Assembly: GCF_036322585.1 (NCBI RefSeq)
Contig: NZ_AP024600.1
Coordinates: forward strand, 1,116,001 to 1,180,000
DNA length: 64,000 nucleotides
DNA from: Luteolibacter sp. LG18
Lineage (GTDB): Bacteria; Verrucomicrobiota; Verrucomicrobiia; Verrucomicrobiales; Akkermansiaceae
Reading direction: 5' to 3'
Shown here: positions 7,569-54,760 of the stretch, in pieces
Position numbering within the stretch: the stretch's first letter is position 1
Layout: each line of letters opens with the position of its first letter
Notes under the pieces: model-generated
Told to the model about the DNA's origin: nothing
The model's input: only the letters and a program-made list of their open reading frames with translations
Database searches by the model: none
Made by a program: the position numbers and the translations under genes

Positions 7569-7756
7569 GGAGTTGAGGCTTTAGCCGAGGAAGGTCTTCC
7601 GGGAGGCGGAGGCTCTGGAGAGGCGAAGGTCCAGCCGGGATGAAGGAAGGCGACGGCACCACCGCCAACATCCCGCCCTTACAGGGCTCGATCCCTTCCC
7701 CCATGAGCCCCGGGGCGATGCCCCGGGCTGTCACATGACGCCCCGTTGGGGCGAAA
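7568..7756. repeat. Composite palindromic intergenic repeat
   Basis: Starts with GGAGTTGAGGCTTTAGCCGA, a word also found after folC at 34474. It continues with CCGCCCTTACAGGGCTCGAT and then the palindrome GCCCCGGGGCGATGCCCCGGGC and CGCCCCGTTGGGGCG; these three words recur, in the same order, after bioA (38960-39045). No gene is visible. Confidence 0.7.
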
Positions 7757-7803
7757 GACAAATGCTTGAACCGAAGCCAGCGCGAAACAAACTGGCCGAC
7801 GTC

Positions 7804-8265
7804 ATGAAGATCGCCACCTTGCTCGCTGGTTGGATGATGATGGCTTCGGCCGTCACCGGAGCGGAAATCTCGGTCAACTCGTTCTTCGGGGAGGGATTCG
7901 GCACGACCTTCTCGAAGAAGGTGGTGTTCAAGAAGAAGACCACCCGGAGCCCGAAAGGCTATCCCGATTCCGAGTGGCTCGTCTTCAAATCCAAGGACGC
8001 TCCGATGACCGAGGGTATCCAGATTGGATTCTGGAACAATTTCGACAGGGAGAAGCTCCAGGCGCTGATCGAAAAAAGCGCGGGCACCGAGGTGAATGTG
8101 ATCGCATACGAAACCATCCACGCGCTGGGTGAGCCCAAGCGCGGCCCCGGCATGCCGAAGCAAACCACGGAGGAGTACTTTGCCGAAGCGGATCAAGGAG
8201 CCGAACCCTGGGCGGTCAGGCGGGTGCTGATCATCATGAAAATGGAGACGGAACCGCCGAAGTGA
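7804..8265 (+). CDS. Small secreted protein of unknown function
   Basis: About 153 residues from the ATG at 7804. The N-terminus MKIATLLAGWMMMASAVTGA is a standard signal peptide. The mature protein contains a very basic strand (SKKVVFKKKTTRSPKGYPDS), a stretch GIQIGFWNNFDREKLQALIE, and an acidic/proline-rich tail. I recognise no domain. The frame is open further upstream to 7735, but that part lies in the intergenic repeat, and the signal peptide supports 7804. It converges with the large cytochrome fusion gene downstream. Confidence 0.72.
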   Translation: MKIATLLAGWMMMASAVTGAEISVNSFFGEGFGTTFSKKVVFKKKTTRSPKGYPDSEWLVFKSKDAPMTEGIQIGFWNNFDREKLQALIEKSAGTEVNVIAYETIHALGEPKRGPGMPKQTTEEYFAEADQGAEPWAVRRVLIIMKMETEPPK

Positions 8266-8358
8266 CGAGTTTTGCCGCTTTGGGATCGGGACGTCGTTTC
8301 CTTTGCGAAACGACGTCCACCGCCCGGTCGCCCCGGCGGTGCGGACCTACCCGCGACC

Positions 8359-11121
8359 CTACTTCTTCCCCTCGCGGATCCACTGCTCCAGCACGCCGAG
8401 CGCGACGCGATCGGGAACATTGCGGGTGAGCGGGGGCATTTGCTCGGTGAGGGAGGTGGAGGCGAGGCGGTGGTGGAGGATCGATTTGGAAACGTCTCCG
8501 GGGGCGACGATTTTCGCACCGTCGAGGCCGAGGGTGTTCCGCACCTCGCCGCCGAGGATGCCCTGGCTGGCGAGCGGGGTGTCGAAACGGGCGTCCCACA
8601 GCGCGCCGGTACCGTTCGGGCGATGGCATTGGGCGCAGTTGGCATCGAGGTAGGATCGCACGCGGGTTTCCACGGACGCGGCCTTGTCGGTGAGGGCGAC
8701 GGTGTGGGAGTAGCCCTTGATCGCGCTCTCATCCAATCCGGTCTTGAACATCTGGAGGTAGCTCCAGGTGCGGAGCTGGTTGTCGGTGTTGCCGCCGGGA
8801 TAGGCGTGGGGGCCGTTGAGCTGGCGGGTCTTCGGGCCGAGCACGAAGCCGGCGTTCGGCGTGTGGCACATGAAACACACGCCGCGGGCCGGGTAGTTCC
8901 ACGTTTGCTCGCGGGGGGTGCCGGAGGCATCGGTGACCTTCAGCACCTCGTCCTGACCGCCTTCTGGAACGAGGTCGGCGTCGGTGTTGTCGGAGCGCCA
9001 GCGGTAGGACGCGCCGTAGCCGAAGGCTCCAGTGGCATCGAGCACCAGCACCCGGGTTTCCAAGCGACGGGCGGCAATGTCGAAGTGCTGCACGAACACG
9101 GTGCCGCCGGGCCAGGTGAACTCCCCGGTGGGCGAGAAGCCGACCTTGCCGGTGGGTGGCAGCGCGACCCAACGCTGGGCGCGCGCCCCATCCGCCCACG
9201 CCGGGCTGTTCAGCGAGTAGGGCACGAAGCCGGGCTTCGGCGTCAGATTGCGGTCGGTGAAAATGCCGGTGGCGGAGAGCGTGGCGGGCAGCCCGGCGTC
9301 CGCGGTGGCGGGGAGTTTCAAGCCGCTGACCGGCGGGCGCTCGTCGAGGCCGTAGGGCGTGGTGCCGGTGACCTTGAGCGTGACGCGGGTCACGGTGCTG
9401 GCGGTGAGGCCGGGCTTGGCGGCGATGGCCTTGAGCGTGGTGTCCGCGGTGACGCGGAGGGGCGCGCTGTAGACCGGCGAGGCCTCGGTCGGCTCCTTGC
9501 CATCGAGCGTGTAGCGGATGGTGACGCCGGGGGTATCACTGGCCAGGCGCAGTGTGACCGGGCCGGTGAAGGTGCCGCCTTCCGGCGTGGCCCGTGGGGC
9601 GGCGACGCCATTGGCGATGTCGAAGGCGGCGCTGGTGACCTCCGCCTTGCCGGTGCTGGCGCGGAGCGTGTAACCGCGGCCGGGTTGGTCGATGGCGAGC
9701 GCGGGGAAGGAAGCCACTCCATTGACCGCGGTGGCGGTGGTGGTGCCGAGCAGTTTCCCGGTCCCGGGATTGCCCGGACTGGCCTGGAGCGTGAGGGTGA
9801 TCGTGTCGGTGGCGGTGGAGACCGTTTTGCCGTCCGGGGCCTGGAGGGCGACCTTCACCTCGCCGAGCGGGGTGCCGACATTCGCACCCGCGGGCTGGCT
9901 CAGGATCGCGAGCTTGGTTGGTTGACCGCCGCCGGTGAAGCGCACGCGCCACAGCGAGCCGTTCTTGCTGATCGTGTTCGCGGCATCGGAGCCGCCGGGG
10001 GTTCCGGCGCGCTCGATGTACCACAGCGCGCCATCCGGGGCGGTGGCCACGCTGATCGGGCGGTCGATGCCGGTGGCGAAATCGAGCCGCGTTTCCGGCT
10101 TCGCGGGGTCGATCAGCTTGATCCAGCCGCCGTAGTCGCTGAAGAAGAACTTCCCGTTGTAATCGGCGGGAAACGAGTCCGGGCCGCGCTTGGCAGGATC
10201 GTAGAAATCCCCCGCGCACAATGCCACGCCCTTGCCGCTGCCATGGTCGTAGGCGTAGGCCGGAGCGCGGTAGCCGGGCGGCTGCTTCTGGTTCTTCGGC
10301 GGGCCGTCGATGTCCGGCCAGCCGTAGTTCACCGCCTGCGGGGTGCCGGTGGTGTCGTAGCGTTCGATCTGCTCGTAGTTCGCGCCGACCATGCTCAGGT
10401 AGAGCAGGCCGGTGCCGGGCTGCACGGCGATGGAAAAGGGATTCCGCAGCCCGAGCGCGACGATGGCGCGGTTCTGGCCCTCGAACTCGCGGTAGCTGGG
10501 GTTGTCGGTCGGGATCGAGCCGTCCTTGTTGAAGCGCAGCAGCTTGCCGAGCAGGTTGCCGCTGTTCTGGGCGTAGCCGCCGTTGGCGTTCTCGCCGGTG
10601 CTGACGTAAAGCTTGCCGTCCTTGCCGAACCGCAGGCCGCCGCCGTTGTGCCAGCCGATCTTGGAAAGGTCCGTGAGTTCCACGATCACCGTTTCGCTGG
10701 CGGGATCGATGGCGCCGCCCTTGATCGTGAAGCGGCTCACGCGGTTGTTGCTGGACTGGTGGCTGGCGTCGTCCGGCTTGCGGTTGTGGGTGTAGTAGAC
10801 GTAGATCCAGCCATTGCGGGCGAACTCCGGATCGAAGCACACGCTCAGCAAACCGCGCTCGTTCCAGCTATCCACCTTCGCGGTGAGGTCGAGCAGCGGC
10901 TTGTCCGCCAGCTTGTCGCCCTCGATCACGCGCAGCAGGCCGTGCTTCTCGCAGAGGAACAGGCGCCCGTCCGGCGCGAAGGTCATGGTGGTCGGGTTCA
11001 AGCCGGTGGCCACCCGCGTTTCGGCGAATCCGGCGGGCAGGTTCGCGGCCCGGGACAAGGGGGCCAGAGCCGCCAGCAGGGCCAGCCAGGACAGGGGACG
11101 GGAGGGTTTCAGGATCGGCAT
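8359..11121 (-). CDS. Glucose/sorbosone dehydrogenase-type propeller fused to diheme cytochrome c
   Basis: A 920-residue exported protein with a signal peptide (residues 1-25). Residues about 30-395 form a PQQ-dependent glucose/sorbosone dehydrogenase-like six-bladed propeller (TTMTFAPDGRLFLCEKHGLL, IGWHNGGGLRFGKDGKLYVS, ALGLRNPFSIAVQP). About 400-500 is Ig-like, and about 505-580 is a chitobiase C-terminal-like module (GGTFTGPVTLRLASDTPGVT). The C-terminal third (about 590-920) resembles the SO_2930 family of diheme cytochromes, with CFMCH at 749-753 and CAQCH at 829-833. A periplasmic oxidation of a sugar alcohol or aldose with direct electron transfer to the fused hemes is the likely role; the substrate is unknown. 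The gene stands alone. Confidence 0.9.
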   Translation of the reverse strand: MPILKPSRPLSWLALLAALAPLSRAANLPAGFAETRVATGLNPTTMTFAPDGRLFLCEKHGLLRVIEGDKLADKPLLDLTAKVDSWNERGLLSVCFDPEFARNGWIYVYYTHNRKPDDASHQSSNNRVSRFTIKGGAIDPASETVIVELTDLSKIGWHNGGGLRFGKDGKLYVSTGENANGGYAQNSGNLLGKLLRFNKDGSIPTDNPSYREFEGQNRAIVALGLRNPFSIAVQPGTGLLYLSMVGANYEQIERYDTTGTPQAVNYGWPDIDGPPKNQKQPPGYRAPAYAYDHGSGKGVALCAGDFYDPAKRGPDSFPADYNGKFFFSDYGGWIKLIDPAKPETRLDFATGIDRPISVATAPDGALWYIERAGTPGGSDAANTISKNGSLWRVRFTGGGQPTKLAILSQPAGANVGTPLGEVKVALQAPDGKTVSTATDTITLTLQASPGNPGTGKLLGTTTATAVNGVASFPALAIDQPGRGYTLRASTGKAEVTSAAFDIANGVAAPRATPEGGTFTGPVTLRLASDTPGVTIRYTLDGKEPTEASPVYSAPLRVTADTTLKAIAAKPGLTASTVTRVTLKVTGTTPYGLDERPPVSGLKLPATADAGLPATLSATGIFTDRNLTPKPGFVPYSLNSPAWADGARAQRWVALPPTGKVGFSPTGEFTWPGGTVFVQHFDIAARRLETRVLVLDATGAFGYGASYRWRSDNTDADLVPEGGQDEVLKVTDASGTPREQTWNYPARGVCFMCHTPNAGFVLGPKTRQLNGPHAYPGGNTDNQLRTWSYLQMFKTGLDESAIKGYSHTVALTDKAASVETRVRSYLDANCAQCHRPNGTGALWDARFDTPLASQGILGGEVRNTLGLDGAKIVAPGDVSKSILHHRLASTSLTEQMPPLTRNVPDRVALGVLEQWIREGKK

Positions 11122-45503: not shown

Positions 45504-46367
45504 ATGTCCCTCACCCCGAAAACCATTCAGATTTTCCTGCCCGGCGGGGATCCCCAGGGCATCCGCGTCGCGGAAATCACGACCCGCATCGTCCAGGTCC
45601 TGGAGGTCCCCCGCAGCCTTCTCGGGGACTTCCTCAAGATGCCGGAGAGCTGCCAGGTGGCGGTCTATTTCCTCTTCGGGGAAAGCGAGGATGGCGAGGA
45701 CCAGAAGGTCTACATCGGCCAAACCGGCGACCTCCGCTCGCGCCTGGTCAGCCACAACAAGGAGAAGGCCTTCTGGCAGCGGGCGCTGGTGCTCATTTCC
45801 CGCACCAACAGCCTGACCCAGACCCACGGGCTGTTTCTGGAATGGAACTGCATCCAGACCGCCACCAAGGCCGGACGTTACGCCCTTGAAAACGGCAACA
45901 CCGGCAGCAAGCCCCACACCCCCGCCCCGCTGGAGGCCGACTGCCTGGAGATTTTCGAAACCGGACAGGTGCTCCTCTCCACCCTTGGCTTTCCGCTGTT
46001 CGATCCCGTCGCGAAGCCCGCCGCCAATCCGGCGACGGATGAAGTTTTCTTCTGCACCGCCTCCGGAGCCAATGGCCGCGGCCTGTACACGCAGGAAGGC
46101 TTCGTCGTGCTGAAAGGCTCCACCGGCCGCCGGGACAGCGTGCCCTCGATCATAGGAACCGCTGGAGAACGCTTCCGCCTGCGTCTCATCGAGACCGGCG
46201 TCGTCCGTGTGGAGGGAGATTCCATCGTCTTCGAAAAGGACCATCTCATCCGCTCCCCGAGCATGGCCGCACTCGCGCTCATGGGACGAACCTCCAACGG
46301 CTGGATCGATTGGAAGACCAAGGACGGCAAGACGCTGGATGCCGTGAAGCGGCAAGCGGTTGGCTGA
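45504..46367 (+). CDS. GIY-YIG nuclease-domain protein with DUF4357
   Basis: A 287-residue protein. Residues about 52-140 form a GIY-YIG nuclease domain (VAVYFLFGESEDGEDQKVYI-GQTGDLRSRLVSH) with a conserved Glu in FLEWNC. The C-terminal part (about 185-275) matches DUF4357 (DEVFFCTASGANGRGLYTQE, IIGTAGERFRLRLIETG). Such GIY-YIG/DUF4357 proteins are often found next to type I restriction-modification genes, as here: hsdM starts 81 bp downstream. The N-terminal 50 residues (IQIFLPGGDPQGIRVAEITT) are found in the same family. The nuclease may act on invading DNA, but this is inferred from context. Confidence 0.88.
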   Translation: MSLTPKTIQIFLPGGDPQGIRVAEITTRIVQVLEVPRSLLGDFLKMPESCQVAVYFLFGESEDGEDQKVYIGQTGDLRSRLVSHNKEKAFWQRALVLISRTNSLTQTHGLFLEWNCIQTATKAGRYALENGNTGSKPHTPAPLEADCLEIFETGQVLLSTLGFPLFDPVAKPAANPATDEVFFCTASGANGRGLYTQEGFVVLKGSTGRRDSVPSIIGTAGERFRLRLIETGVVRVEGDSIVFEKDHLIRSPSMAALALMGRTSNGWIDWKTKDGKTLDAVKRQAVG

Positions 46368-46448: not shown

Positions 46449-48122
46449 ATGCCCCCTTCCGACTCCCAAACCTTTCTTCGCGAGCTCGACAAGAAGCTCT
46501 GGACCGCCGCCGACAAGCTCCGCTCCAATCTCGACGCCGCCGTTTACAAGCACGCGGTGCTCGGGCTGATCTTCCTCAAATACGTGTCGGACTCGTTCGC
46601 GCAGCGGCAGGCGGAGATCGAGGCAATGCTGAAGGACCCGGAAAACGACTTCTTCGTGGACCCGGCCGGCTACGACCAGCCCGCCCGATATGACGAGGCG
46701 ATCCACCAGGAGCTGGAGGAACGGGACTACTACATCGAGAAAAACGTCTTTTGGGTGCCGGCGCTGGCGCGGTGGAAGACCTTGCAGGACTCCGCAAAGC
46801 TTCCGGCGGGGACGGAGATCACGGTGAAGAACGGGAAAACCACCACTTACAGGATCACCTCCACCGGCAAGCTCATCGACGACGCGCTGGAGGCGGTGGA
46901 GAAAGAGAACCCGAAGCTCAAGAACGTCCTCAACAAGAACTACACCCAGCTCCAGATCGATCCGGCGAACCTCGCGGGGCTCATCGACCTCATCGCCACC
47001 ATTCCGTTCCAGCACGCGGACCTTCACGCGAAGGACATCCTCGGCCACGTTTACGAATACTTCCTCGGCCAGTTCGCCCTGGCGGAGGGGAAGAAGGGTG
47101 GCCAGTACTTCACGCCCAAGTCCATCGTCAGCCTCATCGTGGAAATGATCGAGCCCTATCAGGGCCGCGTCTATGACCCGGCGATGGGCTCCGGCGGCTT
47201 CTTCGTCCAATCCGAGCGCTTCATCGAGGAGCACGGCGGCAGCATCGGCGACATCATGGTCTTCGGGCAGGAAAGCAATCCGACCACCTGGCGGCTGGCG
47301 GCGATGAACATGGCCATCCGCGGCATCGACTTCGACTTCGGCAAGGAACCGGCGGACACATTCACCCGCGACCAGCACCCGGACCTCCGCGCGGACTTCG
47401 TGATGGCGAACCCGCCCTTCAACATCAAGGAATGGTGGGACGGCAAGCTGGAGAACGACGCGCGGTGGAAATACGGCACGCCGCCGCAGGGGAATGCCAA
47501 CTTCGCCTGGGTGCAGCACATGCTCCACCACCTCGCGCCGAATGGCTCGATGGCGCTGCTCCTCGCCAATGGCTCGATGAGTTCGAATTCCAGCGGCGAG
47601 GGCGACATCCGCCGCGCCTTGATCGAGGCGGATCTCGTCGAGTGTATGGTCGCCCTGCCCGGCCAGCTTTTCACCAATACCCAGATTCCCGCCTGTATCT
47701 GGTTCCTCACGAAAAACAAAGCCAAGCGCTCCCGCCCCGGTGCAGCCACCCTTCGCGACCGCAGGGGCGAAACGCTCTTCATCGACGCCCGGAAGCTCGG
47801 CTTCATGAAAGACCGCGTGCTGCGGGATTTCAGTGGGGACGATATCGAAAAAATCGCGGGGACTTTCAGAGAATGGAGGACTGGTAGCTACGAGGACGCT
47901 TCAGGGTTTTGCAAATTTTCTAGGCTTCCGGAGATCGCCTCTCATGGATTCATCCTGACGCCCGGTCGTTACGTTGGAGCTGAGGATGTCGAAGACGACG
48001 GCGAAGCGTTTGATGATAAAATGTCGCGCTACGTAGAGGAGCTGAAAAGCCAGCTTGAAGAATCTGCCAAGCTGGAACAGGACATCAAAGCTAGCTTGGA
48101 GGGGTTGGGGTATGGCATCTGA
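46449..48122 (+). CDS. hsdM: Type I restriction-modification DNA methyltransferase subunit
   Basis: A 557-residue N6-adenine methyltransferase. The N-terminal helical domain starts FLRELDKKLWTAADKLRSNL and has VLGLIFLKYVSDSFAQRQAE. AdoMet motif I is VYDPAMGSGGFFVQ (Asp243) and motif IV is NPPF (321-324) in VMANPPFNIKEWWDG. The C-terminus has a coiled-coil-like stretch (SRYVEELKSQLEESAKLEQD). It overlaps hsdS by 11 bp, indicating coupled translation. The last 100 codons are poorer in GC than the rest, foreshadowing the hsdS gene. With HsdS and HsdR it would form a complete type I system. Confidence 0.96.
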   Translation: MPPSDSQTFLRELDKKLWTAADKLRSNLDAAVYKHAVLGLIFLKYVSDSFAQRQAEIEAMLKDPENDFFVDPAGYDQPARYDEAIHQELEERDYYIEKNVFWVPALARWKTLQDSAKLPAGTEITVKNGKTTTYRITSTGKLIDDALEAVEKENPKLKNVLNKNYTQLQIDPANLAGLIDLIATIPFQHADLHAKDILGHVYEYFLGQFALAEGKKGGQYFTPKSIVSLIVEMIEPYQGRVYDPAMGSGGFFVQSERFIEEHGGSIGDIMVFGQESNPTTWRLAAMNMAIRGIDFDFGKEPADTFTRDQHPDLRADFVMANPPFNIKEWWDGKLENDARWKYGTPPQGNANFAWVQHMLHHLAPNGSMALLLANGSMSSNSSGEGDIRRALIEADLVECMVALPGQLFTNTQIPACIWFLTKNKAKRSRPGAATLRDRRGETLFIDARKLGFMKDRVLRDFSGDDIEKIAGTFREWRTGSYEDASGFCKFSRLPEIASHGFILTPGRYVGAEDVEDDGEAFDDKMSRYVEELKSQLEESAKLEQDIKASLEGLGYGI

Positions 48123-49407
48123 ATGGAAAACGCTTCCCCTCGAAGAATGCATGTCCGCGATCATCGACTATCGAGGAAAGACACCGACCAAAACCACGTT
48201 TGGAGTACCGCTCGTTACTGCGAAGATTGTCAAAGGGGGCAGGATCGAACCGGCGGAGGAGTTTATTGCGGAAGCCGACTACGAGGCATGGATGAGACGA
48301 GGTCTCCCTGAAAAGGGAGATATTGTCATGACGACAGAAGCGCCGCTTGGGGAGGTGGCACAACTCGATGGACGGAAAATCGCGCTGGCTCAACGCGTGA
48401 TCACGCTGCGCGGCAAGGAAGAGCTTTTGGACAACGGTTTTCTGCGATACTTGCTCCAATCGACGCCGGTCCAAGACGAGTTGAAAGCCCGTGCAACAGG
48501 AACAACCGTGCTAGGAATCAAGCAGAGTGAGCTTCGAAAAATAAGCCTTACACTTCCACCCCTCTCCGAACAAAAGCGCATCGCCCACATCCTCGGCACG
48601 CTGGACGATAAGATCGAATTAAACCGCCAGATGAACTCCACTCTGGAGGAGATGGCCCGTGCGCTCTTCCAAAGCTGGTTCGTGGATTTCGATCCCGTCC
48701 GCCGAAATGCCGAAGGCGGCGAATCCCGACCGGAGCACTCCTTGTTTCCGGATTCATTCGAGGATTCGGAGCTGGGCAAGATTCCGAAGGGGTGGAAGCC
48801 AGCTAAGGCGAGCGAAATCTGCAAGAACATCTTCAGCGGTGGAACTCCGAGAACCTCCGAGGTCCCTTATTGGGACGGAACATTCCCTTGGTTGTCTTCC
48901 GGTGAAACACGGAATTCTTTCATCATTGAGACAGAGAAGACGATCACACAACTGGGAATCGACAAGTCCAGCACGCGGCTGGCCCGCAAAGGGTGCGTTG
49001 TGATAGCGAGTGCGGGACAAGGTCACACCCGGGGGCAGACCTCGCTACTGGCATTCGATTCCTACATAAACCAATCAGTGGTCGCCCTCGCTGCGGATAA
49101 TGAGATGGCGTCGGACTTGTTCCTCTATTTCGACCTCTCTCGCCGCTATGAGGAATTTCGGCAGCTTTCGGACTCGCACAGTTCCAGAGGCAGCCTCACT
49201 ACCAAACTGCTGGGTGGAGTCCGAGTAGTGTTGCCTGCCAAGGATGCCATTCAAAAGTTTGATTCTATCGTTAACCCGATGGTGACGAAAATCATTGCTA
49301 ATCTCCAACAATCCCGCGCCCTCGCCAACCTTCGCGACACGCTTCTTCCAAAGCTGTTAAGCGGCGAGGTAACGGCAACCGCAATTCCCGAACGATCCCA
49401 TGCCTAA
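48112..49407 (+). CDS. hsdS: Type I restriction-modification specificity subunit
   Basis: A 431-residue specificity subunit with the usual two target-recognition domains. TRD1 spans about residues 5-150 (TLPLEECMSAIIDYRGKTPT), the central conserved helix is about 150-190 (LPPLSEQKRIAHILGTLDDK-IELNRQMNSTLEEMARALFQ), TRD2 is about 215-380 (GWKPAKASEICKNIFSGGTP), and the C-terminal conserved region has LRDTLLPKLLSGEV. The two TRDs would read the two halves of a split DNA target; the target cannot be predicted by eye. It is visibly poorer in GC than hsdM and hsdR, consistent with exchange of specificity genes. The stop overlaps the Mrr gene start. Confidence 0.94.
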   Translation: MASEWKTLPLEECMSAIIDYRGKTPTKTTFGVPLVTAKIVKGGRIEPAEEFIAEADYEAWMRRGLPEKGDIVMTTEAPLGEVAQLDGRKIALAQRVITLRGKEELLDNGFLRYLLQSTPVQDELKARATGTTVLGIKQSELRKISLTLPPLSEQKRIAHILGTLDDKIELNRQMNSTLEEMARALFQSWFVDFDPVRRNAEGGESRPEHSLFPDSFEDSELGKIPKGWKPAKASEICKNIFSGGTPRTSEVPYWDGTFPWLSSGETRNSFIIETEKTITQLGIDKSSTRLARKGCVVIASAGQGHTRGQTSLLAFDSYINQSVVALAADNEMASDLFLYFDLSRRYEEFRQLSDSHSSRGSLTTKLLGGVRVVLPAKDAIQKFDSIVNPMVTKIIANLQQSRALANLRDTLLPKLLSGEVTATAIPERSHA

Positions 49408-50368
49408 CGTCTTTTGCGTCCGTGCTGATTTCGGCACTTACGCCGAACACTTCGTCAAAGGTGGTTACGCGGCCATCGGTTGGCTCGACCACACCGACGT
49501 CACGGGTGTGACGACGAAGGATCAGCTCTATCCGCTCTACAAGAAGGAACATCCGCAGGACACCTCGAATATCGTGATCGGGCAGCAGGTAGGGCAAATC
49601 GCCCGCTTTCTTTTCGATATCCAGCCCGGCGACTTCGTGGTGACGCCCGCAGCGGATTCGCGCTGGCTTCGCTACGGAGTGATGGAGGATGAGCCGTATG
49701 TTTTTGGGGACGGAAAGGACGGCTGCCGATTTCGCCATCGGCGGCAGGTGAAGTGGGCGGCCAAGCGGATCGATCGGACTGTGTTTTCGGTGCCATTGCA
49801 GAACACGCTCCGTTCTTCGCTGACGGTTTTCGCGATCTCCCAGAAGGAGGAGTTTTTCGAGGTGATCGGGAGAAGCGATTTGGTGCCGGCGGGTCACGCC
49901 AAGGTGGCGCTCGACCCCTATGAGGTGGTAATTGGGAGGGTGCTGGAGCTCGATCCCAAAGAGTTCGAGTTGCTGGTGAAGTCGCTGCTTGAAGCGCTTG
50001 GTTTCGAGGCGGAGCATTCCGGGAAGACGGGCGACGGGGGTGTGGATGTGAGAGGCACGCTGGACGTAGACAATTTTGCGCGGATTCGGGTCTTTGTGCA
50101 GGCTAAGCGCTATCAGACTGGAGCGAAAATTGCCGCCAACGTGGTGAAGCAGTTAAGGCAGACGATTCCAAACGGCGCTCAGGGTGCCTTCATCACGACA
50201 GCCGACTATCAGGCAGCGGCCCGCGATGTGGCGGAGGAAACGGGCTTTCCGAGAATCGGGCTAATCAATGGCCGACAGATGGTTGATCTGCTTGTGAAGC
50301 ATTGGGCTGACATTCCCCCCGATTTCAAAACGAAGCTCGGCCTTCAGCCGGGCTTGGTGCTGGTGTAA
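49400..50368 (+). CDS. Mrr-type restriction endonuclease (COG4127-like)
   Basis: A 322-residue protein that overlaps hsdS by 8 bp. The N-terminal half (VFCVRADFGTYAEHFVKGGY-AAIGWLDHTDV, then FLFDIQPGDFVVTPA) is the N-terminal module typical of COG4127 predicted endonucleases. The C-terminal half is an Mrr catalytic PD-(D/E)XK domain: FELLVKSLLEALGFEAEHSG, Asp212/Asp216 in GDGGVDVRG, and Gln234-Ala-Lys236 in VFVQAKRY. Mrr-type enzymes often cut methylated DNA, so this one may target foreign modified DNA that the hsdRMS system would not restrict. Placement inside the hsd operon is not the standard layout. Confidence 0.9.
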   Translation: MPNVFCVRADFGTYAEHFVKGGYAAIGWLDHTDVTGVTTKDQLYPLYKKEHPQDTSNIVIGQQVGQIARFLFDIQPGDFVVTPAADSRWLRYGVMEDEPYVFGDGKDGCRFRHRRQVKWAAKRIDRTVFSVPLQNTLRSSLTVFAISQKEEFFEVIGRSDLVPAGHAKVALDPYEVVIGRVLELDPKEFELLVKSLLEALGFEAEHSGKTGDGGVDVRGTLDVDNFARIRVFVQAKRYQTGAKIAANVVKQLRQTIPNGAQGAFITTADYQAAARDVAEETGFPRIGLINGRQMVDLLVKHWADIPPDFKTKLGLQPGLVLV

Positions 50369-50383
50369 ATAACGTCTTTCATG

Positions 50384-50428
50384 AGTAAAGTTTTCCTCCA
50401 GATGAAGGTTTACTAATGGTTTTTCTTT
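50384..50428 (+). terminator. Possible terminator/attenuator before the DUF4365-like gene
   Basis: AGTAAA (50384-50389) pairs with TTTACT (50409-50414), with CCT/AGG inside, followed by a T-rich tail TTTTTCTTT. The stem is AT-rich and short, so this is a weak candidate. If real, it would separate the nuclease genes upstream from the unknown gene. Confidence 0.3.
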
Positions 50429-50444
50429 AAAAATCGAACATCCT

Positions 50445-51473
50445 ATGATTGCAAGTGGTTCAACTACATTTTCATCGCACAAGGCTGATGGAGCCGCGGG
50501 CGAGCGATACGCTGCTGCAATTCTGACATGTGCGCTCTGCGCTCAAGCCGCTAACTCGACCTTGCAGGAGGACGGCAAAAAGCTGGATTTGAAAATATCG
50601 CTATTAAATGCCTTTTCGGCCCACAAAAGCATTGTGTCGGTTCATGCTCAGATCAAGCATGGCAACTCTTATGCGCGTCAGAGCCCTGGCAGAATCACTC
50701 TTCAAAATCTTGGCAATGAAACGGTGCCGACTCTTCAGGACGGAACTCAGCCGGCCCTGATCATTTGGGTTCCGCCGTGGCCTAACAGGGAGATTTATTG
50801 GCACATTATCCGTCCGAAGGGAAAGCATCGCAGTCCAATAAAAATTGCCGAGGGGGATATTGTCACGCCCGGGTTGAGATTTGAGCTTAGCAGGTTTGCG
50901 AATTTTGAACGTAGGAATCCTCGCTACCCCAGCTTGGATATTCGGCAGATTACTGGGGAGCCCACGAGCAGGGCGAATGCGAAGATGAATTACGCAAAAC
51001 TCAAGAAAGAATCACTGAGCAACCCATTGCTAGGCAACATCTTGGTGACGCGATTGGCTTGGCGTCATATCACCAGATTTTCGCGAACAACCGATCGACG
51101 TCTAAGATCGTTTCACATTCTGGAATACTTGCGGGTGTTTCTTGAAAAGGTCCCTACTCGATATCTTGTTGATCGGAAACCCTCCTGCGAGAAGGACGGG
51201 TTGATGCTGGAGCGGAGCGAGATCGTTTTCTGGTATGCTAACGCCTTTCATATGGGACAGGAAGCGCAAACCCTTCTTATTCGATTCATAGAAGAGGTTG
51301 AGTATCCGCAAAATTGGCGGGAGCGACCGCTCAGCGAAAAGGATGTTACTCATAAAGTTACGCTCATGAGCTGGTGGTTCAAACCACAAAAAAGCGGTGC
51401 CTCACTGTTCCACACTGACGATAGAATTACACGGCAGCAGGCCACCGTGGGTTCTAGCGTCACACTCCCATAA
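50445..51473 (+). CDS. DUF4365-like PD-(D/E)XK protein of unknown function
   Basis: A 342-residue protein. The N-terminal 130 residues fit DUF4365, a PD-(D/E)XK-type family: DGAAGERYAAAIL (Glu20), an ED/KKLDLKISL stretch (Asp48), VHAQIKHG (Gln69, Lys71), and ALIIWVPPWPNREIYWHII. The C-terminal two thirds (about 140-342) look like nothing I recognise: basic and aromatic rich, with LAWRHITRFSRTTDRRLRSF and HILEYLRVFLEKVPTRYLVD. The gene is poor in GC (25 of 60 bases at 50581-50640 are G or C, against 38 of 60 at 52441-52500 in hsdR). It sits inside the hsd operon after the Mrr gene. A nuclease-like defence accessory is my inference; no activity is shown. Confidence 0.75.
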   Translation: MIASGSTTFSSHKADGAAGERYAAAILTCALCAQAANSTLQEDGKKLDLKISLLNAFSAHKSIVSVHAQIKHGNSYARQSPGRITLQNLGNETVPTLQDGTQPALIIWVPPWPNREIYWHIIRPKGKHRSPIKIAEGDIVTPGLRFELSRFANFERRNPRYPSLDIRQITGEPTSRANAKMNYAKLKKESLSNPLLGNILVTRLAWRHITRFSRTTDRRLRSFHILEYLRVFLEKVPTRYLVDRKPSCEKDGLMLERSEIVFWYANAFHMGQEAQTLLIRFIEEVEYPQNWRERPLSEKDVTHKVTLMSWWFKPQKSGASLFHTDDRITRQQATVGSSVTLP

Positions 51474-51553
51474 AGGGACGTGGACTGATCGAGACACCGC
51501 AGACACACTGGAACTTTTCCACGCCGCTTAGTCAAGACCGCATCTCGCATAGA

Positions 51554-54500
51554 ATGATCACCGAAGACCAACTCGAACAGCTCGCGATCCAGTGGTTCCA
51601 AGACACGGGCTGGAATTACGTCCATGGAGCGGTGATCGCGCCGGAAGGCGTGGCGGCGGAGCGGGAGGATTTCCGGGCGGTGGTCTTGAAGGGGCGCTTG
51701 GCGGAGGCGGTGCGGCGCTTGAACCCGAAGCTGCCGGAATCCGCGGTGGAGGAGGTGGTGCATGTGGTGACGAAGCCGGAGCATCCATCGCTGGTGCAGA
51801 ACAACCGGGCCTTCCACCGCTATCTGATGGACGGGGTGCTGGTGGAGTTCACCAACGCGCAGGGGGAGAAGGAGGCGGATCATGCGCAGTTGGTCGATTT
51901 CACCCGGGCGAAGGCGAATGATTTCCTGGTGGTGAACCAGTTCACGATCACGGGGACGAAGAAGCCGCGGCGGCCGGATCTGGTGTGCTTCGTGAACGGG
52001 CTGCCGCTCGGCCTGATCGAGCTGAAGAATCCGGCGGACCAGCAGGCGGACGTGTGGAAGGCATTCGACCAACTCCAGACCTATCAGGCGGAGATTTCGG
52101 ATCTGCTGGTGTTCAACGAGGCGCTGGTGGTGAGCGACGGGATGAACGCCCGGGTCGGATCGCTGACGGCGAGCAAGGAGTGGTTCATGCCGTGGCGGAC
52201 GATCTCCAACGAGAACGACAAGCCGCACGTGGAATTCGAACTGGAAAAGGTGGTCCGCGGGTTTTTCCGGCCGGATCTGTTTCTGGACTACGTGCGGTAT
52301 TTCATCCTCTTCGAGCAGGACGGGGACGGGCTGATCAAGAAGATCGCGGGCTATCACCAGTTCCACGGGGTGCGGGAGGCGGTGCGGGTGACCTTGATCG
52401 CCGCGGCGGGAGAGGATGGCACGAAAGCGAAGGAGGACCGGGCGGCCTATGGCAAGGAAGTGGTACCGGGATCGAAGAAGGCGGGCGTCTTCTGGCACAC
52501 GCAAGGCAGCGGCAAGAGCATCTCGATGTGCTGCTACGCCGGGAAGCTGCTGCAACAACCGGAGATGAACAATCCGACGCTGGTGGTGGTGACGGATCGC
52601 AATGATCTGGATGGCCAGCTCTACCAACAGTTCTGCAGCGCGAAGGATCTGCTGAAGCAGACGCCGGAGCAGGCGGAGAGCCGCGAGCAGCTCCGCGAGA
52701 TGCTGGCGTCCCGGAAGTCCGGCGGGATCATTTTCACGACGATCCAGAAGTTTTCTCTGGAGGGCGCGGAGGATGATCATCCGGTGCTGTGCGAGCGGAC
52801 GAACGTGGTGGTGATCTCGGATGAGGCTCATCGCTCGCAATACGGGACGAAGGGCCGGCTGGACACCAAGACGGGGAAGTACGTTTACGGCTATGCGAAG
52901 CACATGCGGGATGCGCTGCCGGGTGCGTCGTTCATCGGCTTCACCGGTACGCCGATCGAGAAGGCGGATGCGAACACGCAAGAGACCTTCGGCGGTTATG
53001 TGTCGATCTACGACATCGAGGACGCGAAGGAGGACAAGGCGACGGTGCCGATCTATTACGAAAGCCGTCTGGCGAAGCTGGACATCAACCGCGAGGAGAT
53101 CGACCGGCTGAACCAGGATGTGGAGGAGGTGATCGAGGACGAGGAGGATGTTTCCGCGAGGGAAAGCACCAAGGGCAAGTGGGCGGAGCTGGCGAAGCTG
53201 GTGGGCGCGAAGGAACGCGTGGAGGAGATCGCCGCGGATCTGGTGGAGCACTACGAGACGCGGACGAGCGTGCTGGAAGGCAAGGCGATGGTGGTGGCGA
53301 TGAGCCGGGACATTTGCGTGAGCCTCTTCGATGAGATCACCCGGCTGCGCCCGGAGTGGGCGGGCACGAAGCTGACGAAGGACGGCAAGGATATCGGCTG
53401 GAACCCGGAGGACGGCGCGATCCGGATCGTGATGACGGGCACGGCATCGGATCGGCCGGGCTTGCAGGATCATGTGTATAGCAAGGGCCAGAAGAAACGG
53501 CTGGCGAAGCGGTTCAAGGATGCGAAGGATCCGCTGAAGCTGGTGATCGTGCGGGACATGTGGCTGACTGGATTTGACGCGCCGTGCTGCCACACGATGT
53601 ATGTGGACAAGCCAATGGCGGGCCACAACCTGATGCAGGCGATCGCGCGGGTGAACCGGGTGTTCGCGGGCAAGGAAGGCGGGCTGGTGGTGGACTACAT
53701 CGGGATCGCGGCGGAGCTGAAGAACGCGCTGAAGACCTACACGGATGCGAAGGGCAAGGGGACGCCGACCTTGAAGGCGGAGAAGGCGCTGGAAGTCCTG
53801 TTGGAAAAGCTGGATGTGCTGCGCGGGCTTTTCCATGGCTTCGACTACAGCAAGTTCGAAGGGACACCGGCGGAGGTGCTGGCCCTTCTCCCGGCGGCGG
53901 CGAACCATATCCTCGGCCTGGGCGACAAGAACGAGATCAACGGCAAGAAGCGGTTCCTCGATGCAATGGCGGCGGCGAACGTGGCGTATTCGTTGTGCTC
54001 GACGCTGGACGGGGCGAAGGAGCTCAAGAAGGAACTGGCGTTTCTGTCCGCGATCAGCGCGGTGCTGCGGAAATTCGATGGCGTGGACAAGAAGCGCAGC
54101 GCGGAGCAGAAGCACAGCGCGCTGAAGCAGATCCTCGACAACGCGGTGAAGGCGGAGGATGTGCAGGATATTTTCAAGATGGCCGGACTGGAGCGGCCGA
54201 ACATCGGGCTGCTATCCGACGCCTTCCTGGAAGACGTGCGGCGGATGGAGAAGAAGAACCTGGCGGTGGAGTTGTTGGAGCGTTTGTTGCAAGGAAAGAT
54301 CAAGGCGCAGACGCGGACGAACCTGGTGCAGGAAAAGAAGTACAGCGACCGCCTGATCGAGGCGCTGCGGAAGTATCACAACCGGATGATCGAAAGCTCG
54401 CAGGTGATCGAGGAGATGATCCAGATGGCGAAGGACATGCAGGAGGCGATGCTGCGCCACGAGGAGCTGGGCCTGAATCCCGATGAGGAGGCGTTTTACG

Positions 54501-54760
54501 ATGCGCTGGCGGATCGTCCGGAGGTGCTGCTGAGCATGGGCGATGCGACTTTAAAGAAGCTGGCGAGCGAGCTGACGGAGAAGCTGCGAAACAGTACGAC
54601 GGTGGACTGGCAGTTCCGGGACAGCGTGCGGGCGAAGATGCGGATTCTCATCAGGCAGCTGCTGAGGAAATACAAATATCCGCCGGAGGGGTGTGAGGAG
54701 GCGATTGCGCTTGTTCTGAAACAGGCCGAGGCACTGGCGGATGATTGGACGGGCAACTGA
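51554..54760 (+). CDS. hsdR: Type I restriction enzyme R subunit
   Basis: A 1068-residue restriction/translocase subunit. An N-terminal nuclease domain has RPDLVCFVNGLPLGLIELKN (PD-(D/E)XK). The SF2 motor has Walker A QGSGKS (318-323), the LVVVTDRNDLDGQLYQQF segment, DEAH at 423-426 in VISDEAHRSQYG, and FIGFTGTPIEK. The C-terminal part is helical with many Lys/Glu. With hsdM and hsdS it makes a full type I system. It starts 81 bp after the DUF4365-like gene and is convergent with miaB, 18 bp apart. Length and order are normal for the family. Confidence 0.96.
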   Translation: MITEDQLEQLAIQWFQDTGWNYVHGAVIAPEGVAAEREDFRAVVLKGRLAEAVRRLNPKLPESAVEEVVHVVTKPEHPSLVQNNRAFHRYLMDGVLVEFTNAQGEKEADHAQLVDFTRAKANDFLVVNQFTITGTKKPRRPDLVCFVNGLPLGLIELKNPADQQADVWKAFDQLQTYQAEISDLLVFNEALVVSDGMNARVGSLTASKEWFMPWRTISNENDKPHVEFELEKVVRGFFRPDLFLDYVRYFILFEQDGDGLIKKIAGYHQFHGVREAVRVTLIAAAGEDGTKAKEDRAAYGKEVVPGSKKAGVFWHTQGSGKSISMCCYAGKLLQQPEMNNPTLVVVTDRNDLDGQLYQQFCSAKDLLKQTPEQAESREQLREMLASRKSGGIIFTTIQKFSLEGAEDDHPVLCERTNVVVISDEAHRSQYGTKGRLDTKTGKYVYGYAKHMRDALPGASFIGFTGTPIEKADANTQETFGGYVSIYDIEDAKEDKATVPIYYESRLAKLDINREEIDRLNQDVEEVIEDEEDVSARESTKGKWAELAKLVGAKERVEEIAADLVEHYETRTSVLEGKAMVVAMSRDICVSLFDEITRLRPEWAGTKLTKDGKDIGWNPEDGAIRIVMTGTASDRPGLQDHVYSKGQKKRLAKRFKDAKDPLKLVIVRDMWLTGFDAPCCHTMYVDKPMAGHNLMQAIARVNRVFAGKEGGLVVDYIGIAAELKNALKTYTDAKGKGTPTLKAEKALEVLLEKLDVLRGLFHGFDYSKFEGTPAEVLALLPAAANHILGLGDKNEINGKKRFLDAMAAANVAYSLCSTLDGAKELKKELAFLSAISAVLRKFDGVDKKRSAEQKHSALKQILDNAVKAEDVQDIFKMAGLERPNIGLLSDAFLEDVRRMEKKNLAVELLERLLQGKIKAQTRTNLVQEKKYSDRLIEALRKYHNRMIESSQVIEEMIQMAKDMQEAMLRHEELGLNPDEEAFYDALADRPEVLLSMGDATLKKLASELTEKLRNSTTVDWQFRDSVRAKMRILIRQLLRKYKYPPEGCEEAIALVLKQAEALADDWTGN

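Follow-up and report, generated by a model that had tools for sequence, protein, structure and literature searches.

What is encoded between the Mrr-type nuclease gene and hsdR in a type I restriction-modification (R-M) operon of Luteolibacter sp. LG18? The gene, hereafter gene X, lies in the window, that is the whole 64,000-nucleotide stretch of contig NZ_AP024600.1 that was analysed. The original prediction, made from the sequence, saw a DUF4365-like nuclease fold followed by about 200 residues of no known type, and proposed a defence accessory or a guard that comes into play once R-M has failed. Its observations are confirmed in part. As to their interpretation, the DUF4365 assignment and the defence neighbourhood stand and the R-M guard is not specifically supported.

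A six-gene cluster

The predicted open reading frame is present on the plus strand, between the Mrr-type gene and hsdR. All genes of the cluster are on the same strand, in the following order.

45504..46367, +, GIY-YIG/DUF4357 protein, PADLOC candidate PDC-S14, at the head of the cluster (Pfam, PADLOC)
46449..48122, +, hsdM (Pfam N6_Mtase, 3.7e-108)
48112..49407, +, hsdS (Pfam Methylase_S, 1.3e-27)
49400..50368, +, Mrr-type endonuclease, PADLOC candidate PDC-S02 (Mrr_cat, 3.7e-23; PDC-S02, 2.5e-146)
50445..51473, +, gene X, predicted DREN (DUF4365)-type nuclease domain and conserved LPD3-like C-terminal domain, 342 aa (ORF, homologues, models)
51554..54760, +, hsdR (Pfam HSDR_N, 2.4e-49; T1RH-like_C, 1.6e-115)

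For hsdS the ATG at 48112 was taken as the start on inspection; the ORF as listed begins at 48055. The GIY-YIG match of the first protein is weak (0.0017). Gene X had been described as a fourth protein of the hsd operon; with the GIY-YIG/DUF4357 and Mrr-type genes counted, it is one of six cluster genes. Its GC content is indeed far below that of hsdR (50.0% versus 61.7%). The values of hsdS (54.4%) and of the Mrr-type gene (58.0%) are low too; hsdM is at 60.4% and the window at 65.2%.

Gene X starts 76 bp past the end of mrr. The weak terminator that had been placed in front of it was rejected on a site scan and a shuffled-fold comparison. The scan found no terminator site in the spacer 50369-50444 and two sites elsewhere in 49300-51700, where 2.8 are expected from shuffles. 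The fold of the spacer gave a z of +0.80 against shuffles, 155 of 200 shuffles being at least as good.

The window protein has no match in Pfam, PADLOC or NCBIfam at E ≤ 1 and none among PDB sequences at E ≤ 10. To this extent the claim that it matches nothing is correct, but it does not extend to its relatives. Since the protein is without a match in PADLOC 2.0.0, such genes may escape notice.

The N-terminal half is a predicted DREN-type nuclease

Conservation was read from an alignment of 17 full-length copies (the window protein and 16 relatives), or 18 rows with one truncated copy. An AlphaFold model of gene X computed from 13 sequences has a mean pLDDT of 81. Search for structural similarities using Foldseek returned 676 matches at E ≤ 10. 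Six reach E ≤ 1e-3 and all of these are SPARDA DREN-APAZ proteins. Realignment with VIA-align superimposes 130 residues on SPARDA chain 9qbp_C (Z 12.8, rmsd 2.9; model residues 15-156), and five SPARDA entries top the realignment with Z from 12.8 to 10.2. In four of these five rows the alignment ends by residue 158 of gene X; that of 9jt2_F ends at residue 260.

50487..50912, +, predicted N-terminal DREN/DUF4365 PD-(D/E)XK nuclease domain, residues 15-156 (VIA-align, Foldseek)
50586..50588, +, codon of Asp48, predicted catalytic Asp, counterpart of NbaSPARDA D41 (kept in 18/18 rows)
50649..50657, +, codons of Gln69-Ile70-Lys71, the QxK motif (NbaSPARDA Q60/K62, TmuRE Q62/K64; 18/18 rows)

Asp48 and Gln69-x-Lys71, which the original prediction had singled out, are invariant in all 18 rows, as is Asp43. 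The catalytic residues of NbaSPARDA are given as D41, Q60 and K62, with D41 shown to be catalytic (PMC12205087), and the Q62A/K64A variant of TmuRE was used as inactive mutant (PMC10810196). A strand is predicted in the AlphaFold model at residues 118-122, corresponding to the IYW strand. Glu20, also named as a residue expected for the fold, is not conserved and takes no part in the D-Q-x-K triad. It is Glu in 14 of 18 rows and Ala in the three closest full-length relatives (L009-L011; L numbers denote loci and G numbers genomes) and in the truncated copy of G996. A catalytic role of Glu20 was rejected on the Ala of these relatives and on its place outside the triad published in PMC12205087.

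Pfam DUF4365 matches all 14 homologues scanned at E ≤ 0.12, four of them above the PF14280 gathering cut-off of 24.3 bits; L010 and L016 are outside these 14. The DUF4365 model gave no match over the window's own genome, where the controls were silent as well. Taken together, the structure search, the invariant triad and the DUF4365 matches back the PD-(D/E)XK assignment. The predicted fold has the nuclease core, the absence of which would have counted against the earlier reading, and according to the model the N-terminal half of gene X is a DUF4365/DREN-type nuclease fold.

The homing enzyme I-Ssp6803I has the same nuclease core (2ost, Z 8.0, 118 residues). It differs from gene X in that the matched chain has 133 residues and no C-terminal domain. 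It is reported to be DREN-like, and DREN tetramers were compared with it (PMC12205087). The Mrr-type PDC-S02 neighbour also belongs to the PD-(D/E)XK superfamily, and DUF4365 is placed in the Mrr subfamily (PMC6299218). In the neighbour, unlike gene X, the nuclease domain (Mrr_cat) stands at the C-terminus. No sequence relation between the two proteins was detected (hhalign probability 0.1).

The C-terminal domain is conserved and weakly resembles LPD3

50952..51398, +, predicted C-terminal alpha+beta domain, residues 170-318, LPD3-like (AlphaFold model, BFVD, conservation)

Modeled alone from 13 sequences, residues 170-318 reach a pLDDT of 92.3. Eleven residues are invariant in the 17 full-length rows (P194, G197, T202, R203, W206, H208, R211, S222, E283, W291 and K313), which suggests a functional site. 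The model of this domain has no PDB match at E ≤ 1e-3. Realigned to 997 PDB chains, it has a best Z of 4.3, with affimer, toxin and NTF2-like chains tied; this lack of a PDB match is no proof of a new fold.

Among the viral predicted structures of BFVD, first rank goes to a protein labelled LPD3 (E 6.6e-4, probability 1.00, TM 0.46), the sole match at E ≤ 1e-3. LPD3 was named from large proteins of phages and mobile elements (PMC5512222). The Pfam model PF18798 of LPD3 matches five of 13 C-terminal domains at E ≤ 10 (best 1.8e-4); the domain of the window protein itself gave no match. A difference from LPD3 is that the best scores listed for full-length homologues, 20.1 and 20.0 bits, are under the 27-bit gathering cut-off. 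HMM-HMM comparison with an ad hoc, poor LPD3 alignment gave a probability under 2 and no alignment. The C-terminal domain weakly resembles the phage domain LPD3, and it is not APAZ.

Outside the window, LPD3 is matched four times within long open frames on contig 1 of the same genome (G000, 3272161-3280415); these frames may encode polyvalent proteins of a mobile element.

A rare and patchy family

Gene X was found in its own genome only among 99 relatives of the window genome. Four of 387 genomes of the phylum, its own included, gave a match. Two of the four were rejected: L003 lies inside an unrelated long ORF, and the match of L004 covers just 58 residues (E 0.009). The class scan retained three of 384 genomes, namely its own, G361 and G996, the last with a truncated copy. 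In the surroundings of Rhodocyclus, one of 398 genomes has the gene, the centre itself.

Alignment-based scanning of genome contigs identified 11 loci (L009-L019). The best of these relatives are 35-37% identical over the whole protein and come from Paraburkholderia, Rhodocyclus and a Moraxellaceae MAG. A plasmid protein search added two Cupriavidus records, a Tritonibacter copy and a Pantoea copy, the last carrying a DUF4365 annotation. A weak, degraded copy on a Salmonella plasmid (E 0.05) was excluded from the alignment and counts. The family is rare and patchy.

In a tree of the 17 full-length copies the window gene clusters with the proteobacterial copies L009-L011 (support 100/100), and the same-class copy of G361 is in the other clade. 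Taken with the low GC, this grouping indicates horizontal transfer.

Copies in P2-like prophages

Alignment-based scanning of viral contigs found five P2-like prophage loci (L020-L024), the same five in two scans; a scan with the single window protein found nothing. The proteins of L020-L024 and L025 (E. coli SCU-115) are identical. Four of 5,426 E. coli genomes carry the prophage copy, 99.8% identical in DNA and annotated there as 'hypothetical protein'. Neither the window protein nor the P2-prophage relative, used as queries, found a copy in 50,697 phage records; genomes and prophage contigs are therefore the sole sources of the P2 copies here.

In each of the four E. coli carriers gene X falls in the interval from the portal gene, which is incomplete in one genome, to the replication endonuclease gene of a P2-like prophage. 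This site is the gpA-gpQ defence hotspot, published as an anti-phage hotspot (PMC9122126, PMC9519451). All annotated neighbours between portal and replication endonuclease are on the strand opposite to gene X. No Argonaute is annotated beside the four copies. The same hotspot in L020 contains a PDC-M03A/PDC-M03B (HIRAN) candidate defence pair (L020:7672-9323), on the strand opposite to gene X. The same two annotated neighbours recur in all four E. coli genomes. In E. coli SW071614 (L087) the stretch of the P2-like prophage from ogr to the portal gene is mostly gone, but the hotspot is retained, and in it gene X, HIRAN and the replication genes.

Gene X is often found beside known or candidate defence genes

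To compare neighbourhoods, two ORFs of 250 aa or more were taken at each of 15 loci, the one nearest to gene X and the one farthest from it, and scored against PADLOC at E ≤ 1e-10. The nearest ORF at L031 is HsdS, which was outside the PADLOC scan, hence 14 nearest and 15 farthest ORFs. The count omits the window, L017 (short contig), the broken copies L008 and L032, and L021-L024 with the E. coli loci, since L021-L024 and L025 carry the same protein as L020. The nearest large ORF is a PADLOC match at nine of 14 loci and the farthest at none of 15 (Fisher one-sided 2.0e-4), under a distance rule set after by-eye neighbour scans, with eight of nine early-scanned and one of five later-scanned loci matching.

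The matches are NERD-helicase (L005), PDC-S46 (L006), PD-Lambda-1 (L007), SIR2/ThsA-like (L009), HEC-07 (L010), GajB (L015 and L016), PDC-S28 (L019) and PDC-M03A (L020); by label, five of the nine are candidate or associated families and not tested systems. At the same threshold the nearest large ORF has no match at L011, L012, L013, L014 and L018. Farther out, inspection by eye identified GajA (L015, L016), Wadjet JetC and JetD (L010), an Old/GajA-like gene (L011) and LmuB (L013). The homologues are therefore not found mainly away from defence genes, which agrees with the original prediction.

Both flanking ORFs of at least 120 aa are on the strand opposite to gene X at three of 12 loci (L013, L014 and L020), so gene X can stand alone, and it probably works as a one-gene unit. 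At three of the 12 (L010, L012 and L016) a same-strand gene ends at most 150 bp upstream of gene X. With the 76 bp gap to mrr in the window, this makes partners possible.

Two neighbourhoods may be recorded separately. At L010 a gap of 106 bp separates gene X from the HEC-07-like gene upstream (8148-9892; 1.5e-72, profile positions 239-552 of 553), which has the same orientation, is near the Wadjet operon and may be split over two frames. The truncated copy of G996 (L032:4120-4461, 113 aa) resembles the subfamily of the window and stands beside a CBASS cyclase, a 2TM effector, BrxL and PglZ.

A candidate one-gene defence nuclease

Prediction and comparison show the fold, the D-QxK triad, the conservation of the C-terminal domain and the proximity to defence genes. 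Gene X encodes a candidate defence nuclease, probably a one-gene system. In the best reading, its C-terminal domain senses a signal or switches the DREN domain. The best explanation as a whole, to which we give a probability of about 0.6, is a DREN nuclease effector whose LPD3-like domain would replace the APAZ/Argonaute part of SPARDA. The protein would be silent in healthy cells. The C-terminal domain would detect an infection trigger or an assembly state and then bring DREN domains together. The assembled domains would degrade host and phage DNA, stopping phage spread. Gene X would move as mobile cargo, in the hsdS-hsdR slot here and in P2-like prophages and defence islands elsewhere. We infer the nuclease activity, the anti-phage effect and the triggering with oligomerisation from the analogy to SPARDA.

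The DREN-APAZ proteins of SPARDA (NbaSPARDA, TmuRE, XauSPARDA) likewise have an N-terminal DREN fold with a D...Q-x-K active site and then a separate C-terminal domain. In contrast to SPARDA, the C-terminal half of gene X is without an APAZ-like match, and PIWI and APAZ models match none of the six cluster proteins in Pfam or among the PADLOC matches listed. The DREN domain of NbaSPARDA alone is described as monomeric and without detectable activity, filament-driven tetramers being active (PMC12205087). As the SPARDA domain is inactive until tetramerised, the fused domain might here render the nuclease constitutive or attach to a particular site in DNA.

EAT16, an injected toxin associated with eCIS, is also Argonaute-free and two-domain with DUF4365 at the N-terminus (PMC11297309). 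It kills E. coli, and single mutation of three of the four DxGxD...QxK residues abolished toxicity. Unlike gene X, it is described there as cargo of an injection system and not as a defence-island gene. DUF4365 appears in the literature with APAZ/Argonaute (PMC10810196, PMC6299218), in EAT16 and in an unnamed genomic-island ORF. In searches of an open-access library, no paper was recognised as reporting a fusion of DREN/DUF4365 with an LPD3-like domain. The nuclease module is known; its two-domain setting appears to be new, and gene X is probably a defence system of one gene. It would represent a compact family, found in defence neighbourhoods, that pairs the SPARDA active site with a second, deeply conserved domain. 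TIR and SIR2 are modules common to different immune systems; if our reading is true, the DREN module would be another.

A further reading is tentative. It proposes Argonaute-free one-gene DREN immunity with a phage-derived LPD3-like sensor or assembly switch and maybe a second, RNase-type site, present in P2-like prophages and in the R-M slot. The LPD3-like domain would then probably derive from early-deployed proteins of phages and mobile elements.

Mrr- or MspJI-type enzymes cut target DNA directly, without cell suicide. Gene X would do the same if it were a solo restriction-like endonuclease, its C-terminal domain reading a DNA site or modification and its PD-(D/E)XK domain cutting phage DNA. 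The nuclease domain, the adjoining Mrr-type gene in the window and the position of the L013 copy, no more than 3 kb away from Vsr and a type II REase-like gene, agree with this. Modification-dependent enzymes are also among the structure matches (DpnI, Z 5.4; MspJI and AspBHI, Z 3.8-3.9). However, the closest fold, at Z 12.8, is SPARDA DREN, a non-specific collateral nuclease (PMC10810196, PMC12205087). No DNA-reading domain matches the C-terminal domain significantly, and in the P2 prophage a phage Dam-like gene, located past gene A, is the sole methylase seen. We consider a solo endonuclease rather unlikely.

A protein with two nucleases, attacking DNA and RNA, is doubtful. Here the C-terminal domain would be an RNase of BECR type (RelE/colicin-D-like). 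Its predicted order of elements, beta-alpha-alpha and then four longer strands, fits the BECR hallmark of PMC5512222, with His208 in the first helix of the predicted core (17/17 rows) and Ser309 in the last strand (16/17 rows). Third place in the realignment of the domain goes to 7vd7_A, a chain from a toxin-antitoxin complex (Z 4.1, rmsd 3.9, 85 residues). Against this, no structural match is significant: Z 4 is noise level, with similar scores for affimer and NTF2-like chains. L010 has Ala in place of Ser309, and LPD3 is absent from the seven LPDs that PMC5512222 lists as potentially enzymatic. The places of H208 and S309 in the model are a lead, not a result.

Type I R-M operons and the remaining alternatives

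The guard proposed originally would resemble PrrC (PMC3874168): the R-M complex would keep gene X silent, and a phage anti-restriction protein would free it. The position in the window, between hsdS/Mrr and hsdR, agrees with such a role. So does a second copy, of the other clade, after hsdS in G361, where the longest ORF of gene X overlaps the end of hsdS. Of gene X beside hsd genes in other genomes, this is the one further copy; the other 15 of the 17 full-length copies are outside hsd operons. The R-M subunits of the window and G361 are just 22-28% identical. Unrelated subunits and separate clades of gene X suggest that the association probably arose twice. With two of 17 copies in R-M operons, from different clades and beside unrelated subunits, an R-M guard is not specifically supported.

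According to PMC3874168, prrC is invariably linked to the hsd locus, whereas gene X is linked to it in 2/17 copies. Other copies are beside Gabija, SIR2, PD-Lambda-1 or candidate genes, or have both flanks on the opposite strand (3/12 loci). No ABC-type ATPase domain was found in gene X in Pfam or among the structure matches listed. Close HsdR proteins are present in 28 of 169 genomes of the class, its own included. In 12 of the class operons (L074-L085) the hsdS-hsdR interval is empty in three and filled with other genes in nine, and gene X is in none. Defence genes in this slot have been published, namely DarTG2 (PMC12255303), TgvAB and RloF (PMC11411939), and tgvAB protects without HsdR restriction activity (PMC11411939). 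PrrC/RloC, DarTG2, TgvAB and RloF share with gene X the place inside type I R-M operons, and several are published as anti-phage. They differ from it in their domains and in that gene X is mostly unlinked to R-M. The guard is improbable, and we prefer the reading of gene X as a mobile DREN effector.

A DNA-repair or recombination nuclease (Hjc/RecU-like), in defence islands by chance, has the alignment of Hjc chains (Z up to 9.8) and RecU chains (about 6.4) in its favour and is very improbable. The Hjc values fall below the SPARDA rows by merely 0.4 to 3; the stronger argument is that gene X is rare, patchy and enriched beside defence genes.

The slot in L074-L085 carries, among others, trypsin-like and DUF3644, TIR_2, RhuM, AAA_13, Abi_C, AAA_21 and Schlafen/Fic-like genes. 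In G361 the genes downstream of gene X, on the same strand, are one for a small protein that matches PDDEXK_5 weakly (0.0012) and one for a SIR2-like protein (L031:8926-9516 and 7653-8975), possibly effectors stacked in one operon.
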